The notes beneath the pieces were generated by a model that was not told the origin of the DNA, ran no database searches, and saw only the letters and a list, made by a program, of their open reading frames with translations. The position numbers and the translations under genes are program-made. DNA of 64,000 bases from Planctomycetales bacterium 10988 (GTDB lineage Bacteria; Planctomycetota; Planctomycetia; Pirellulales; Pb10988): contig CP043547.1 in NCBI GenBank assembly GCA_009664345.1, positions 5,732,709 to 5,796,708 of the forward strand, given 5' to 3'. Positions 18,752 through 32,546 of the stretch are shown here, piece by piece; within the stretch, counting starts at the first letter, position 1; each line of letters begins with the position of its first letter.

Positions 18752-21292
18752 GTGCCACTTACTGCCTTTCCCAAGTTAGGTAAAAGGATACAAATCAAGA
18801 GGCTGGCCTACTGTAGCTTGCTAATGATTCCTTTTGCTGGTCTCTCTGCAACAGGTTGGGGGCAACAGATTACTGCTCCTATCATCAAGACCTCGATGCA
18901 GCCAACGCCTTCTCCCGCGGATGATGCTCAACCGCCTACTCCTCCCGCTGCGGACGGAGAAGTGGAAACCCTCGATCCGGTTGAGGTCGAAGGAGAAATT
19001 CAACAGCCTGAAGAGGCCCCCGCTCCTCCGGAAGTCGATGACTTTGATCCGCCCAGCCCGCCGCCACCGACGCCAGTTCCTACTGATCCGGCAGAGACCG
19101 GGGCTCCGGCGAGTGAGATCTTTGGCCCAAGTGCGATCGGAATCGAAACCGGCGGACGTACGACAAACATTAACGCCGAACAACTTCAGCGAACGCTTAC
19201 CCAAGACATTCGAGACGCGATTCGCTATGAACCCGGCGTCTATGTGGAGTCGAGCGGCGAACGGTTTGGAAATCAGAACTTCAACATTCGTGGTCTCGAA
19301 GGAAATCGTGTTCTCATCACCGTTGACGGCATCCGCGTCCCGGAAGGCTTTAGCTTTCCGCCAGGTCGTGACTTAGGCCGAGACGTAGTGGACTTCGACG
19401 CGATTAAAGAAATCGACATCGCCCGCGGTGCCGGATCGCTGGTGTATGGAAGTGATTCGCTCGGCGGGGTGGTCGCTTATACGACCTTCGATCCCGCGGA
19501 CTTGCTGCTTGGGGATGATAGCTATTTAAGCTTGAAAAGTGGTTTCTTTACCGAAGATGAACAATTTGCCCACACGATGCGGGTTGCCGAACGCGTCGGC
19601 GATTGGGAAGCCCTGTTGATCTATACTCGCCGCGATGGCCATGAAGTTGAAACCAATGGGCCGCTTCCGATCAATCCGCAAGATTTCTTCAGTAATAGCT
19701 TTCTTGGAAAGTTAGTTTACAACATCGATAACCATCAATTCATTCGCTTCACTGGTGAATTTTCCGATCAAGAAGTGGGAACGAATTTGCTCACAGACCT
19801 GAGTAGCGGAGGATTTTCGCCAGATTCGATTATCTCCTCCGGAGCCGATGACGATAGTCGCCGCTATCGTCTGGGATTGGATCATGAGTTCTTCGATCCC
19901 ACCGGACCGTTCTGGCAGCGGGCGCGAACCCAAGTTTACTATCAGGATTATTACATCGATAGTGATCAACAAGATCGCCGGATTCGGACGTCCTTTGGTC
20001 CTCCGATGCCTCCGCAGATGGTTCGCCGTGAACGCTTGGAGCAATTCGATCAACGGAATCTCGGCGGTCGGCAGTATTTCGAAGTGGAGTTTGAAGGCTT
20101 TGCTCGTGAAGAACACCGAGTCATCTTCGGTTGGGATTTCGATGCTTCCTATATTTTGCGAGCACAAAATGGCGTGGAAGTGAACGAAACGCTTGGCACT
20201 TCGACCCAGAACTTCGCCTTGCAACAATTCCCGAACAAACTCTTTCCCGATAGTACCGTGCGTCGTGCAGGAGCCTTCATTCAAGATGAATTCGAGATCA
20301 TGAATGGCTTGATTACCTTGCGACCGGGGGTTCGTGGAGAGCTGTTTGACTTGCACGTTCGTCCGGATGAGATTTTCAACGCGAATTCGGTGGCTCCGGA
20401 AGATGAGCCGCATGACTTCAACGATCAGGCTCTTTTGCCGAAGTTGGATATCATTCTGGCAATGACCGACGAATGGGATTTGCAGGTGAATTACGCCCGC
20501 GGCTATCAAGCCCCGCCGTTTGATTCGAACATTTTGTTCAGCAATTTAAGCGGTTTCTTCCAATACGTGGTCAATCCGAATCCCGATCTCCAGTCGGAAT
20601 TCAGTGACAACTTCCAAATTGGGGTCACGCATGCTGGGCGACGCGGCAGCTTCTATGCGAATGCCTATTACAATGAGTACGATGGCTTCATCAATCAAAC
20701 GGTCACCGATGTGCAAATCTTGCCCGGTGGGATTCCCCGCTTGATTTTTGAACAAACCAACTTGGAACGAGCCGAGATTTACGGTTGGGAATTTGCTGCC
20801 GAACGCTTGATCATGCCTTATGGTGATCCGCGTCTGCAAAGCCAACGTCATCCGCTGCCTGGGCTTTATGCCTTCGCGAATGGGGCTTATGCGGTCGGGA
20901 ATGATGAACAGAACGATCAACCGATCAACTCGATTGTCCCTTACACCAGTGTTTTGGGGGTCCGTTGGCAAGCTCCTTGCGATGTCTGGGGAGTCAGCTT
21001 CCTCAGCACATTGCGAGCTGAAAAAAGCCAGAATCGCGTGGCGACCGATGATTCGTTCGCCGGACAATTTGATGGTGGCTTCTTTGCTCCTCCTGGCTAC
21101 GGCGTTTTCGATCTCGTCGGATATTACAAGCCTTACGACAATTTGACCGTGAACTGGGGTGTGTTCAACATCTTTGACAAGGTCTATTGGGACTGGCTCA
21201 ATGTCCGCGACGTGCCTGCTGACAATGACTTAGTTCTTCGCTTGGCCGAACCTGGGATCAATGGGCGAATTTCCGTCACCTTGAACTATTAA
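18752..21292 (+). CDS. TonB-dependent heme/hemoglobin-type outer-membrane receptor
   Basis: The 846-residue protein starts at GTG 18752 behind GGAGG and has a signal peptide ending near SATGWG. A proline/glutamate-rich linker (about 40-125) contains a TonB-box-like ETLDPVEVEGE. The plug domain follows (about 135-250: YEPGVYVE, FNIRGLEGNRVLITVDGIRVPE, RGAGSLVYGSDSLGG), then a 22-strand-type barrel ending in an aromatic residue (ISVTLNY). The plug motifs match the hemoglobin/transferrin/lactoferrin receptor group. The divergent tandem hemP genes and the Fur-like palindrome support heme-iron uptake. The gene is followed by a strong terminator at 21395-21441. Confidence 0.92.
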   Translation: MPLTAFPKLGKRIQIKRLAYCSLLMIPFAGLSATGWGQQITAPIIKTSMQPTPSPADDAQPPTPPAADGEVETLDPVEVEGEIQQPEEAPAPPEVDDFDPPSPPPPTPVPTDPAETGAPASEIFGPSAIGIETGGRTTNINAEQLQRTLTQDIRDAIRYEPGVYVESSGERFGNQNFNIRGLEGNRVLITVDGIRVPEGFSFPPGRDLGRDVVDFDAIKEIDIARGAGSLVYGSDSLGGVVAYTTFDPADLLLGDDSYLSLKSGFFTEDEQFAHTMRVAERVGDWEALLIYTRRDGHEVETNGPLPINPQDFFSNSFLGKLVYNIDNHQFIRFTGEFSDQEVGTNLLTDLSSGGFSPDSIISSGADDDSRRYRLGLDHEFFDPTGPFWQRARTQVYYQDYYIDSDQQDRRIRTSFGPPMPPQMVRRERLEQFDQRNLGGRQYFEVEFEGFAREEHRVIFGWDFDASYILRAQNGVEVNETLGTSTQNFALQQFPNKLFPDSTVRRAGAFIQDEFEIMNGLITLRPGVRGELFDLHVRPDEIFNANSVAPEDEPHDFNDQALLPKLDIILAMTDEWDLQVNYARGYQAPPFDSNILFSNLSGFFQYVVNPNPDLQSEFSDNFQIGVTHAGRRGSFYANAYYNEYDGFINQTVTDVQILPGGIPRLIFEQTNLERAEIYGWEFAAERLIMPYGDPRLQSQRHPLPGLYAFANGAYAVGNDEQNDQPINSIVPYTSVLGVRWQAPCDVWGVSFLSTLRAEKSQNRVATDDSFAGQFDGGFFAPPGYGVFDLVGYYKPYDNLTVNWGVFNIFDKVYWDWLNVRDVPADNDLVLRLAEPGINGRISVTLNY

Positions 21293-21628: not shown

Positions 21629-23047
21629 ATGAAGATGTTTTTAAATAGTGAATGGGTCGATCGAAGCGAAACCATTGATGTCCTCAATCCGTATGATGGG
21701 TCTGTTGTTGATACCGTTCCGAAAGGAACTGGAGATGATGTTGACAAAGCCGTCGAAGGCTTGAAAGCCGGGGCGGAAACGATGCGGAAGATGACCGCTT
21801 ACCGCCGCTTCGAGATTTTGCAAACCGCCACGCAGATCATGCGGGAACGGAAGGAAGACCTTGCCCAAACGCTTAGTAAAGAAGAAGGCAAGACCATCAA
21901 AGAGGCCCGCGGCGAAATTGACCGATCTAGCCAAACGATGGAGCTTTCCGCCGAAGAGGCCAAACGAATTTATGGCGAAGTTCTGCCTTTGGATGCCGCT
22001 TCGCACGGCGCGGGGAAATTTGGCTTTACTCTGCGGATTCCATGCGGCATCGTCGGGGCGATTTCTCCGTTCAATTTTCCGTTGAATCTCGTCACCCACA
22101 AAGTCGGTCCTGCCATCGCTGCTGGAAATGCGGTGCTGCTCAAACCTGCCAGCGATACTCCATTGATTGCGATGAAGCTCGTGGAGATTCTATTGGAAGC
22201 GGGTCTTCCCACTGAAGCAATTGCGATTATCACTGGCTCGGGAAAAGAAATCGGCAAGGCCATCTGTACCAATCCGCATATTCGCAAGATTACCTTCACC
22301 GGCTCGCGCGAAGTCGGCGAAGCGATTTGCAAAATGGCCGGCCTCAAAAAAGTCACCATGGAGCTTGGTTCGAATTGTCCTTTGGTCGTCATGCCGGATG
22401 CGGATTTGGACAAAGTGGCGAAGTTGACGGTAGCGACTGGCTTTGCAAATGCGGGGCAAGTTTGCATCTCCGCCCAACGGATCTTGGTCGATAAGAGCGT
22501 TTACGACGAGTATTTGGAGCGGTTAGAGAAAGAAACCCAACAAGTGAAGGCGGGCAATCAGCTCTTGGAAGAATCCGGGATGGGGCCGATGGTTCGTGAA
22601 TCGGATGCCGTGAGAGTGGCCGAATGGATTGACGAAGCGGTCTCCGGTGGGGCACGTAAACTCTGCGGCGGCGAACGTCAGGGAGCCTTGCTCACGCCGA
22701 CCGTTTTGGCCGATGTCAAACCGGAGATGAAGGTTTCTTACGATGAAGTCTTTGGTCCCACGGTTGCGGTCAGTCATACGAGTGATATTGAAGAAGCCAT
22801 CCGCAGTGCCAGCAATACCAACTATGGCTTGAGTGCGGCGATCTTCACCCAAGATATCGACCGGGCTTTGAAATTCGCCAGAGAGGTTCCTTCCGGAAAT
22901 ATTCATATCAACTGGGGAACCGCTTGGCGAGCGGACCTCATGCCCTACGGAGGTCTCAAAGATAGCGGCCTCGGCAAAGAAGGCCCGAAGTACGCCATCG
23001 AGGAAATGACCGAATCCAAAACGGTTGTCATTCATGGAAAGGATTGA
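21629..23047 (+). CDS. aldehyde dehydrogenase family protein
   Basis: The 472-residue protein is a full-length NAD(P)-dependent aldehyde dehydrogenase. Asn149 in SPFNFPLN, the Rossmann-type FTGSREVG, the general base Glu245 (ELGSNCPLV) and nucleophile Cys279 (GQVCISAQR) are all present. The C-terminal GLKDSGLGKEG is canonical. The NCPLVVMPDADLD stretch resembles the lactaldehyde/non-phosphorylating glyceraldehyde-3-phosphate dehydrogenase subgroup, but the substrate cannot be fixed. It stands alone, with the four-helix-bundle element starting 25 bp after its stop. Confidence 0.93.
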   Translation: MKMFLNSEWVDRSETIDVLNPYDGSVVDTVPKGTGDDVDKAVEGLKAGAETMRKMTAYRRFEILQTATQIMRERKEDLAQTLSKEEGKTIKEARGEIDRSSQTMELSAEEAKRIYGEVLPLDAASHGAGKFGFTLRIPCGIVGAISPFNFPLNLVTHKVGPAIAAGNAVLLKPASDTPLIAMKLVEILLEAGLPTEAIAIITGSGKEIGKAICTNPHIRKITFTGSREVGEAICKMAGLKKVTMELGSNCPLVVMPDADLDKVAKLTVATGFANAGQVCISAQRILVDKSVYDEYLERLEKETQQVKAGNQLLEESGMGPMVRESDAVRVAEWIDEAVSGGARKLCGGERQGALLTPTVLADVKPEMKVSYDEVFGPTVAVSHTSDIEEAIRSASNTNYGLSAAIFTQDIDRALKFAREVPSGNIHINWGTAWRADLMPYGGLKDSGLGKEGPKYAIEEMTESKTVVIHGKD

Positions 23048-23071
23048 GGGCGGGGAAGCCCGTCTTGGCGA

Positions 23072-23164
23072 GGTTCCACGAATGCCAGGGTGACGAATCG
23101 TGTTCGGTGTTCGGTATTCAGTGTTCGGTACTTGGGAGGAATGCTTTTCGGCAAGCGTGAATTG
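23072..23164 (+). repeat. left inverted repeat arm of the IVS-like element
   Basis: Heptamers are TTCGGTG (23103), TTCGGTA (23110), TTCAGTG (23117) and TTCGGTA (23124), followed by CTTGGG at 23131. The R position reads G-G-A-G. Two further degenerate heptamers (TTCAGAG, TTCGGAA) occur at 23186-23199, inside the element. Confidence 0.85.
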
Positions 23165-23218
23165 GAAGCAGGGTGACGGCTAGGTTTCAGAGTTCGGAAG
23201 AGAATGTCTGAGAGGAAT

Positions 23219-23581
23219 TTAGCTTTTTGAAGAATTAGAGTTAATGGATTGTGTGAGGCGGGTCAACATCCGGGCGATCCCTTTCGTTTCTTCGACAAGG
23301 TATTTCATGTTTTGTTGATTGATCATTTCGACCTTCGCTGCGATGTAACCCTGGGTGCGAAGTTCGGCAGCCGAACCTTTTGCGATTCTCAAGAACCGTT
23401 CAAAGTCCTTCCCTTCGCGTTCACATCCCTCGGCGATGTTGGAAGCGATAGAGACAGCCGCTCGTTGCATTTGATCTTTCATGCCAAAATCGCGGCTCTC
23501 TCTTGTTACTTGATAAACAAAGACTGCCAGATTGCAAGATCGTTTCCAAACATCAAGGTCTTCAAACGATTGAAATGCCAT
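23219..23581 (-). CDS. four-helix-bundle protein, S23/IVP family (TIGR02436)
   Basis: The 120-residue protein begins MAFQSFEDLDVWKRSCNLAV and contains DFGMKDQMQRAAVSIASNIAEG, the signature of the S23 ribosomal/intervening-sequence protein family (PF05635/TIGR02436), to which DGR accessory protein Avd is related. The family forms a pentameric four-helix bundle with a basic surface and is thought to bind nucleic acid. It was first found in insertions within 23S rRNA. Here the gene lies between two about 94-bp inverted repeats that carry heptamer arrays, suggesting the protein recognises them. Its strand is opposite to both flanking genes, and no reverse transcriptase or variable repeat is nearby. 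Confidence 0.93.
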   Translation of the reverse strand: MAFQSFEDLDVWKRSCNLAVFVYQVTRESRDFGMKDQMQRAAVSIASNIAEGCEREGKDFERFLRIAKGSAAELRTQGYIAAKVEMINQQNMKYLVEETKGIARMLTRLTQSINSNSSKS

Positions 23582-24106
23582 ATTAGATTATTCCTCCAAC
23601 AAATTTGCCTCCTCCTTTTTATTTTGAAGGACTTTCGACTTCCAGCAAATTTTGGGTTTTTCTCTATCTCACGATTTCTTTCCTCCCTTCTTTCAATTCA
23701 CCGTTGCCAAAAAAGTATTCCTCCCAAGTACCGAACACCGAACACTGAAAACCGAACACAAATCCCAACCCTGGCATTCGTGGAACCCCGCGATTCCCTT
23801 TTCGCTCGTGCCTAAAAACTCCCCTTGCCAAAAACCCTTTGTTTCTGGCATAGTATCCCTTCCCAAAGGCACCCGCTCGGCCCAACTTTTCGGTGGCCAA
23901 AGCTTGTATCCCTTCTCAGGTGCGGCGGGAATCATCTCAGCGAAATACTTCTCTATCTCTCCTATTCTAATGCGATTTGCCGATAAATTCGGAATAAGCG
24001 AGATAATCCAAAAAGTTTATCAAAAAGACTAAATCTTACCGATCCTAGTCGTCGATACCGGAAGCGACGTTGCGAATCAGAGAACTAGACGGGAGAGAAC
24101 TATATC
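23582..24106. other. intergenic region: right arm of element and leader of the DUF11 gene
   Basis: The first 205 bp belong to the IVS-like element. From 23788 to 24106 there is no gene; GGGAGAGAA at 24091-24099 is the likely ribosome site of the following gene. Confidence 0.55.
23694..23787 (-). repeat. right inverted repeat arm of the IVS-like element
   Basis: Read on the minus strand, the heptamers are TTCGGTT, TTCAGTG, TTCGGTG and TTCGGTA (23756 down to 23729), then CTTGGG. The R position reads G-A-G-G, so the two arms of this element are distinguishable. Confidence 0.85.
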
Positions 24107-30695: not shown

Positions 30696-32183
30696 TTACT
30701 TTCTCCGTCGATCCCGTTTTCGTTTGCGGCGATCTTTGGCACGCTCTTTTTCGTGTTGTTGCCGTTCTTTGCCGGTGAGTCGTTTGCCGGTACTTTGCTT
30801 CTGACCGGGAAGCATTCCTCGTGGATTCATCATCCCTTCGCCCGTCAACTCTCGCATCATTTTCATGCGATCCATCATCCCTTTGCCGGAGAGGGTTTTC
30901 ATCATTTTCCCCATCGTTTCGGCTTGTTGGACGATTTGATTGACTTCGTGCGGTTGCACCCCGGACCCGGCAGCGATCCGGCGGCGGCGACTATGATCCA
31001 GGAACTTGCTCGGATTCGGATGACGGCGTTCTTCCACGGTCATCGAGTCGATAATCCCTCGGATTTGCCGCATGTTCTTTTCAGCATCTGATCCAGAGAC
31101 CATCTTCATCATGTCCGCATTCATACCCGGCATCATGCCGAGCAATTTGGTGACCGGACCGAGTTTCGATACCTGACTGAGTTGATCGCGGAAGATTTCG
31201 AGATTGAACTGTCCTTCTTCGATTTGTTTTCGGACGCGTTCTTTCTCATCCTCGTCGATCACGCGATCGGCCCGTTGGATGAGCGACATGATGTCGCCTT
31301 GGCCTAAAATCCGTCCGGCGATTTGCTCAGGGACGAAAGGCTCCAGGTCGATCAGATGTTCCCCGGTCCCGATGAATTTAATCGGAACGCCGGTCACATG
31401 TTTGACGGAGATCGCGGCTCCCCCGCGGGCATCCCCATCGAGCTTGGTCAAAATCACGCCATTGAGTTCAAGTGCTTCGTTAAAGGACTTGGCACTATTG
31501 ACGGCATCTTGACCAGTATTCGAGTCCACAACGAGAAATACATGATGCGGCTGTACGCGATTGTCAATTCGCGTTAGCTCCTGCATTAACTCATCGTCGA
31601 CATGCAAACGGCCGGCGGTGTCCAAAATCAGGACATCGACCTCTTGTTTCTTCGCTTCCTTGACGGCTTGTTGGCAAACCGTGACAGGATTTTGCTGACC
31701 CGCTTCGCTATAGACCGGCACTTGAATCTGCGAGCCGACGACCTTGAGCTGCTCAATGGCGGCAGGACGTTGCAAGTCCGCGGCAGCCATCATCGGCTGT
31801 TTGCCTTGCTCTTTGAGCATTTTGGCAAGCTTGCCGCAGGTGGTCGTTTTCCCGGAACCTTGCAAGCCACACATCATGATGATCGTCAGGCCGGATTCCA
31901 ATCGCACCGAATTGTCGACTGGCCCCATCAAATTGACGAGTTCATCATAGACGATTTTACTCAACTGCTCGGTGGGATTGAGCTTAGTGAGTACTTTTTC
32001 GCCTTGGGCTTGTTCCGAGACGTTTTTCAGGAACTCTTTGACGACCGGGGCACTGACATCTGCTTCGTACAAGGCGTCGCGAACCATCTCCAGGCCGTCG
32101 CGCATGTTCGCTTCGGTCAACTTTCCTTTGCCGGAAAGCGTCTTAAAGGCAGAGACAAGGCCAGTTTGGAGGGATTCAAACAT
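30696..32183 (-). CDS. ffh: signal recognition particle protein Ffh
   Basis: The 495-residue protein has the N domain, the GTPase G domain (P-loop GLQGSGKTTTCGKLA near 110-124, DTAGRLHVD, TKLDGDARGG) and the methionine-rich M domain with GPVTKLLGMMPGMN. A long Lys/Arg-rich tail (ERAKDRRKRKRDRRRK) ends it. It binds signal peptides and 4.5S RNA and delivers ribosomes to the membrane. It is the first gene of the ffh-rpsP-trmD-rplS-yraN series. Confidence 0.97.
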   Translation of the reverse strand: MFESLQTGLVSAFKTLSGKGKLTEANMRDGLEMVRDALYEADVSAPVVKEFLKNVSEQAQGEKVLTKLNPTEQLSKIVYDELVNLMGPVDNSVRLESGLTIIMMCGLQGSGKTTTCGKLAKMLKEQGKQPMMAAADLQRPAAIEQLKVVGSQIQVPVYSEAGQQNPVTVCQQAVKEAKKQEVDVLILDTAGRLHVDDELMQELTRIDNRVQPHHVFLVVDSNTGQDAVNSAKSFNEALELNGVILTKLDGDARGGAAISVKHVTGVPIKFIGTGEHLIDLEPFVPEQIAGRILGQGDIMSLIQRADRVIDEDEKERVRKQIEEGQFNLEIFRDQLSQVSKLGPVTKLLGMMPGMNADMMKMVSGSDAEKNMRQIRGIIDSMTVEERRHPNPSKFLDHSRRRRIAAGSGVQPHEVNQIVQQAETMGKMMKTLSGKGMMDRMKMMRELTGEGMMNPRGMLPGQKQSTGKRLTGKERQQHEKERAKDRRKRKRDRRRK

Positions 32184-32546
32184 TGTAGCTTACAAATACG
32201 TACGGGTCGTCCAAGTTGCGAAAACGGGGAAACTCGCAACATACCAGATCAAAGGGAGATTGGCAATGGACTAGAAAGAGAAAGAAGAAAAATGTAGGCG
32301 GGGTGACGCGAAAACCAGGGGGATAAATCGTGTTCGGTTTTCAGTGTTCGGTGTTCGGTGTTCGGTTCAGGAAGGTTACATCGGTTCTCAAGTTATATCT
32401 GAATCGCACTGTATATATAAGGAGAAAAAGTTCCATACCTGCTCTCGATTTTCGGCCCAAGTACCGAACACTGAAGACCGAGCACCGGACACGAATCTTT
32501 AGGTATCAACCCGTGAAACTTCGCCAAGGAATGTGAACTCCAATTC
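32184..32546. other. intergenic region upstream of ffh with heptad element
   Basis: Holds the inverted-repeat element at 32325-32500 and, to its left, about 140 bp that must include the ffh promoter. No gene is seen. Confidence 0.55.
32325..32500. repeat. gene-less heptad inverted-repeat element (copy 3, reversed polarity)
   Basis: The left arm has five tandem heptamers (TTCGGTT, TTCAGTG, TTCGGTG, TTCGGTG, TTCGGTT; 32333-32367). The right arm, read on the minus strand, has TCCGGTG, CTCGGTC, TTCAGTG, TTCGGTA (32489-32462) then CTTGGG. The left arm shows the G-A-G-G order of the S23 element's right arm, and the right arm shows the G-G-A-G order of its left arm, so this copy is inverted. The outer flank CCAGGG...ATCGTG also resembles the S23 element. 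About 95 bp separate the heptamer arrays. Confidence 0.8.

Follow-up and report, generated by a model that had tools for sequence, protein, structure and literature searches.

A putative transposase-less mobile element formed by an S23 gene and inverted heptamer arms, with gene-free satellites

Introduction

Intervening sequences (IVSs) in 23S rRNA of the Coxiella and Leptospira type, which carry an S23 ORF, share an arm–S23–arm plan of about 420–430 nt with the unit described here, and the Coxiella IVS contains three tandem heptamers (GACAGAT), variable in number, which adjoin S23p (PMC4990558). Structures of S23/IVP proteins have been solved, but no function has been assigned to them. The Xanthomonas protein XCC0516 is composed of five four-helix bundles, and its homology to Avd has been noted (PMC10053308).

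Heptanucleotide repeats, on the other side, are over-represented and unexplained in bacterial genomes. Heptameric SSRs have been described in Xanthomonas (GGGAATC) and Nostoc (GGGGAYT). For campestris, the source species of XCC0516 (2gsc), 186 GGGAATC repeats at dispersed positions, 70 pairs in convergent orientation and a preference for four units were reported, together with G-quadruplex (G4) formation by these repeats (PMC4692102). Rehm et al. (2015) left their function and origin open, detected no general link to mobile elements and did not mention S23 (PMC4692102). We found no paper that links S23 to heptamer arrays in general, in a search outside which subscription literature and preprints fell, so that priority is not certain.

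Here, we analyzed a 64-kb stretch of DNA (the window; G000:C1:5732709-5796708) from a 6.65-Mb genome assembled as a single contig, in which a first-pass annotation had noticed an S23/IVP gene between long inverted repeats and had proposed an IVS-like or transposable element.

Results

Structure of the S23 unit in the window

The S23/IVP gene claimed at 23219–23581 was confirmed by profile searches, in which its product matched PF05635 with 109.9 bits (curated cut-off 33.8; E 9e-32) and TIGR02436 with 107.2 bits (curated cut-off 24; E 5e-31). The complementary arms were also present. They contain the exact 20-base outer block (GGTTCCACGAATGCCAGGGT), four heptamers each, the CTTGGGAGGAAT box and, on the inner side, the TGAATTG block. 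The main arms (23068–23148 and 23711–23791), of 81 nt each, are 86% complementary, and the inner block (23145–23173 and 23685–23713) is 83% complementary; the alignment score of the arms was 62, compared with values of at most 11.5 for swapped loci. With up to two mismatches, the motif GTGTTCGGTGTTCGG had 12 matches in the window against 0.17 expected, and folding of the unit as single-stranded DNA yielded a long stem (z around −10; 20 shuffles). The unit comprises the following features:

23068..23099, plus strand: left arm, outer box (GCGAGGTTCCACGAATGCCAGGGTGACGAATC), from sequence and arm alignment
23100..23127, plus strand: left arm, four heptamers, GTGTTCG GTGTTCG GTATTCA GTGTTCG
23128..23173, plus strand: left arm, inner box GTACTTGGGAGGAAT and inner block containing GTGAATTGGAAG
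23219..23581, minus strand: S23/IVP gene, 120 aa, intact, four-helix bundle, PF05635 and TIGR02436
23685..23731, minus strand: right arm, inner block and inner box (ATTCCTCCCAAGTAC)
23732..23759, minus strand: right arm, four heptamers (minus strand, 5' to 3'), GTGTTCG GTTTTCA GTGTTCG GTGTTCG
23760..23791, minus strand: right arm, outer box

As had been proposed, the unit is intergenic and starts 20–25 bp past the stop of an aldehyde dehydrogenase gene (21629–23047). It is also located outside rRNA, since no rRNA, other Rfam family or tRNA was detected anywhere in the 64-kb window, and no rRNA location was found at 20 related loci either. The label "IVS-like" held for the plan but not for the location, which is not within a 23S rRNA gene; compared with rRNA IVSs, the present units are intergenic, are accompanied by dispersed gene-free satellites and use a heptamer of their own in each lineage. 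A TonB-dependent-receptor-like gene, judged by its translation only, lies upstream of the aldehyde dehydrogenase gene (18752–21292).

A dispersed heptamer family in the same genome

A genome-wide search with the arm motif GTGTTCGGTNTTCRGT returned 51 + 61 = 112 matches, compared with 0 for the reversed control, and the arms are thus not unique to this locus. With the exact pattern, the 101 listed matches were grouped into 58 arms, forming 19 convergent pairs and no divergent ones, with 20 arms unpaired. Exactly four heptamers were present in 28 of 47 arms of this genome, from which an outer consensus GGGGTT.CAC..A..CCAGGGTAACGAATC was derived, and an inner consensus GTACTTGGGGTGAA was recovered in other units. 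Interiors of the 19 paired units in the surveyed sequence measured 86–158 bp, with the sole exception of the S23 unit (604 bp), and S23 was the only gene seen between arms of this family in the surveyed parts of the genome. Furthermore, the interiors of several units were 71–90% identical between sites, in either orientation, while their flanks were without similarity, which is a mark of transposed copies. Within 0.86 Mb, the gene-free units lay almost wholly outside long ORFs, and all 11 units adjoined at least one gene stop, mostly at short distance.

A second member of the family is found in the window itself:

32303..32515, no strand assigned: gene-free unit of the same family; outer ends approximate, no gene in the interior of about 100 bp

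This unit, placed between ffh (30696–32183, minus strand) and a 221-aa ORF, has convergent heptamer arms at 32330–32364 (plus) and 32465–32492 (minus), with five heptamers on one side and degenerate ones on the other, and is a putative non-autonomous member of the family. A candidate 5.3-kb element (4204807–4210159) was discarded, as it came apart into one solitary arm and, distinct from it, a short pair.

One gene-bearing copy together with many gene-free, intergenic pairs of inverted short repeats is also the composition of REPIN/RAYT systems. That a Y1 (RAYT/IS200) transposase moves the repeats, with S23 as an incidental neighbor, is nevertheless a reading of negligible probability, given that this genome has dozens of dispersed units but no PF01797 match, and that four further genomes with S23 (G009, G025, G026, G027) have none. 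The units described here also differ from REPIN/RAYT in that the gene is S23 and the arms are tandem heptamers rather than one REP hairpin. With MITEs they share short, multi-copy, gene-free inverted-repeat units with homologous interiors, but neither a transposase partner nor a target-site duplication was recognized. S23 units are, like DNA transposons and MITEs, multi-copy and mobile as judged by filled and empty sites (see below), whereas a transposase in the autonomous copy was not found, S23 standing alone between the arms.

Inverted heptamer arms around S23 genes across bacteria

When other S23 genes were checked for related arms, inverted heptamer arrays were found at all four S23 genes of this genome, with quite different heptamers, of the types AGTGGGG, AATAGGG and GAGGGGC, at the other three. 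Strict patterns revealed no dispersed copies of these three types in 0.8 Mb of the genome. Beside another S23 gene (L003:1956–2156; G000, around 2.3137 Mb), about 30 uninterrupted TATTCCC heptamers were observed, the usual number being four. In the same order, S23 was present in 21 of 30 genomes, with up to nine copies, and most of the examined loci were heptamer-framed, the word varying from locus to locus.

A broader survey with one genome per species yielded 80 loci with S23, and their record titles placed them in at least 15 phyla. The median inverted-flank score of these loci was 17.5, compared to 8.2 for swapped loci, and 75% of them exceeded the 99th percentile of 1294 random windows from the same contigs. 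Similarly, a lag-7 periodicity on both flanks was observed at 55% of the loci versus 0.5% of random windows. A strict two-sided test on 117 loci gave 69 with lag 7 and eight with lag 8, while each of the lags 4–6 and 9–11 was represented by none or one. Most surveyed arms comprised four heptamer units, and the inward strand was the G-richer one at 65 of the 69 lag-7 loci. After phase alignment, the heptamers showed the consensus R-T-Y-A-G-K-R, with an invariant G and an information content of 4.36 bits, compared to 3.64–3.87 bits in shuffled words. In an independent set of virus-catalogue contigs, 28 of 31 S23 loci had inverted arms; GenBank phage records contained no S23 match. Approximately 14–25% of S23 loci were without clear arms. 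Judged from these sequences, inverted heptamer arms are the general architecture around S23 in at least 15 phyla, each lineage having its own heptamer. In some S23 lineages (L174, L175, L182, L201, L318), the repeat unit is not a 7-mer but an 8-mer or a word of another length.

Filled, empty and decayed sites

Empty sites were sought and found, both in Nostoc plasmids and in one genus of the window's order. In the plasmids, the unit of about 419 bp consists of the arms and S23 and nothing else. It is inserted between two genes of a shared operon in C052 pC052_D, N6 pNPM1 and ATCC 53789 pNsp_a, and the same site is empty in five other plasmids, two of them from strain C052. In pNsp_c, the first unit is absent and a different S23 unit is found one gene further on, at a site that is empty in C052. 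Homology between the Nostoc unit and plasmid units from Aulosira, Trichormus and Scytonema covers the arms and what lies between them but stops there. Two homologous plasmid units at one orthologous site differ in length by exactly two heptamers. The best-resolved junction was provided by pNPM1 (L112), where a gene-free unit built on the same heptamers interrupts the S23 gene (intact GAGAGCAGATAAAGC) and any duplication is of at most 1 bp. No target-site duplication was recognized, nor was an excision product seen; TTCTA, a candidate duplication in Nostoc, was rejected as part of the arm. On the plasmid pNe_5 of Nostoc edaphicum (L108), an S23 unit on the opposite strand stands between the two ribonucleotide reductase subunit genes.

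In a genus of nine species belonging to the window's order, a single intergenic site has the unit present, inverted, decayed or absent. The unit is intact in G451, and nothing is found there in G463 and G464. In G398, it is inverted, with a stop codon at the invariant W12 of S23; this genome (L298) and G462 (L302) have different nonsense codons (TAG and TGA) at the same invariant Trp12 codon of the orthologous site. Only a right-arm remnant is left at this site in G276, in which dispersed arms persist elsewhere. G404 has a short GTTTGAAG...CTTCAAAC at the position that the unit takes up in G462, bordered there by the same octamers, and this short sequence may be a target hairpin or a scar.

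These comparisons show that the unit is gained, lost, inverted and decayed as a whole. The other outcome that we looked for, namely S23 conserved in position without arms and with no empty sites, did not hold, and the proposal of a transposable element is well supported by the filled and empty sites together with the non-unique arms.

The S23 protein and its association with the heptamer

The AlphaFold2 model of the window S23 protein (pLDDT 94.9) best matched the PDB entries 2gsc (TM 0.85) and 2rld (TM 0.77), each deposited with five chains, followed by Avd (4dwl); TM values were around 0.75 against 4dwl and against Avd in the DGR RT complexes 8ub7/8ube. The model thus predicts a four-helix bundle similar to Avd, and the family to which the protein belongs forms pentamers; both features are shared with the Avd of diversity-generating retroelements. 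In contrast to those retroelements, no template or variable repeats were seen at S23 loci, and there is no reverse transcriptase (RT) gene next to the S23 gene of the window. The fold, the stem-loop as which the unit would be transcribed and seven RT matches in the window genome would suit a non-autonomous retroelement in which S23 acts like Avd, recruiting an RT in trans. This reading is extremely doubtful, as many genomes of that order that are rich in S23 (with nine, eight, seven and five S23 genes) have no PF00078 match, and an RT in trans was discarded as a requirement on the basis of co-occurrence.

The link between the protein and the arms had previously been drawn from position only. 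We now observed a Mantel correlation between S23 protein identity and the similarity of the heptamers (r 0.149, 0 of 1000 permutations), also after correction for GC difference (r 0.117, 1 of 1000), although this correlation is weak and the sequences, being related, are not independent data. In particular, the closest homologues of the window protein that were retrieved from the phylum search and the same-order set (G451, G398, G328 and G020; 62–66% identity) all have GTKTTMR heptamers, while none are found at the three S23 paralogues that the genome of the window also encodes, which indicates that the word follows the protein and not the host. The link thus no longer depends on position alone, as the heptamer tracks the protein across genomes.

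Proposed mechanism and its significance

Taken as a whole, the feature is probably a mobile element without a transposase, in which S23 would recognize its own heptamers and mobilize both its unit and non-autonomous satellites. The protein would bind the heptamers that belong to its lineage; a single-stranded or hairpin form is the most plausible target, given that the arms are inverted tandem arrays with strand asymmetry. It would bring the two arms into contact, in the form of looped-out hairpin DNA or of RNA. This would allow host enzymes to copy or transpose the unit, as well as its satellites in trans, into intergenic sites shortly past stop codons. On this view, rRNA IVSs that carry an S23 gene would be members of the class inserted into 23S rRNA. 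Purifying selection on S23 also speaks for this reading. The unit encodes no transposase, RT or Y1 nuclease, only S23 being present between the arms, and neither RT nor Y1 nuclease is consistently present in S23 host genomes, a co-occurrence pattern that argues against a requirement for either in movement.

A rather unlikely alternative is that the units do move but that S23 travels along as a passenger or has a regulatory role, for instance by binding the transcribed stem or limiting transposition, the moving enzyme being encoded elsewhere in the host. This would agree with the protein, in which no recognizable catalytic site or known nuclease motif was found, with the predominance of gene-free units and with G276, which keeps dispersed arms even though its compared S23 site is an arm scar only. 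However, no gene but S23 was seen between the arms in the surveyed parts of this genome, and S23 recurs in this arrangement in at least 15 phyla. Moreover, the heptamer follows the S23 phylogeny, RT and Y1 transposase are missing from several S23-bearing genomes, and the number of repeats in Xanthomonas tracks S23, all of which speak against this alternative.

No known class combines the features of the S23–heptamer unit; a more cautious label could be that of a wide generalization of the IVS. Such units may plausibly form a pan-bacterial class of elements of about 0.4–0.7 kb, with an Avd-like S23 as sole gene. Each lineage would read a heptamer of its own, and host enzymes would move the units along with the satellites in the absence of a transposase; these elements would be the source of both the widespread heptanucleotide repeats and S23-bearing rRNA IVSs. 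S23 units probably explain the scattered 7-letter repeats of many bacterial genomes, which would thereby gain a probable origin, and the association provides S23/IVP proteins with a candidate partner sequence. It also suggests that, in S23-bearing rRNA IVSs, a widespread element has landed at a special site. If S23 does drive movement, this would represent transposition without a recognized transposase, and the protein family with its matching 7-nt words could serve as a recognition code.

S23 and GGGAATC repeats in Xanthomonas

The S23 arm heptamers of Xanthomonas are GGGAATC/GGGATTC, i.e., those of the published heptameric SSRs, with which the S23 arms also share convergent pairs and a four-unit preference; the window unit differs from this type by its GTGTTCR heptamer. 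The Xanthomonas S23 protein closely matches XCC0516/2gsc (E 6e-51). One orthologous S23 with such arms has been retained in most of 35 Xanthomonas species. Vertical retention of this one locus in about 30 species resembles the behavior of a resident gene rather than that of an active selfish element. The number of GGGAWTC arrays was 58–258 in the 30 genomes with a strong S23 match (E < 1e-30), 4 and 20 in the two genomes with a fragmentary or partial match, and 0, 17 and 47 in the three genomes without S23. The latter occupy ranks 1, 3 and 5 of 35 in array number, with a chance of 7/6545 if genomes are taken as independent; they are related, no correction for phylogeny was applied, and G057 and G058 seem to belong to a divergent lineage.

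This long vertical retention under purifying selection (dN/dS for S23 was mostly 0.02–0.26), array lengths that differ by whole heptamers and the published G4 formation are what would be expected of a host gene whose arrays are regulatory or G-quadruplex/terminator sites spread by replication slippage. Such an origin is highly improbable, given that inverted arms, dispersed copies with homologous interiors and clean empty sites are beyond slippage, and it is contradicted by the filled and empty sites. A need for G-quadruplexes as the cause of four-unit arrays was also rejected, as heptamers without G runs, e.g., GTGTTCR, show the same preference.

A clean empty site between carA and carB was sought but rejected, as other species have an unrelated gene of about 145 aa at this position, which indicates gene replacement. 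The unit found between these two genes in Xanthomonas is an S23 unit with CGGGACC heptamers (L208, L233, L234, L246).
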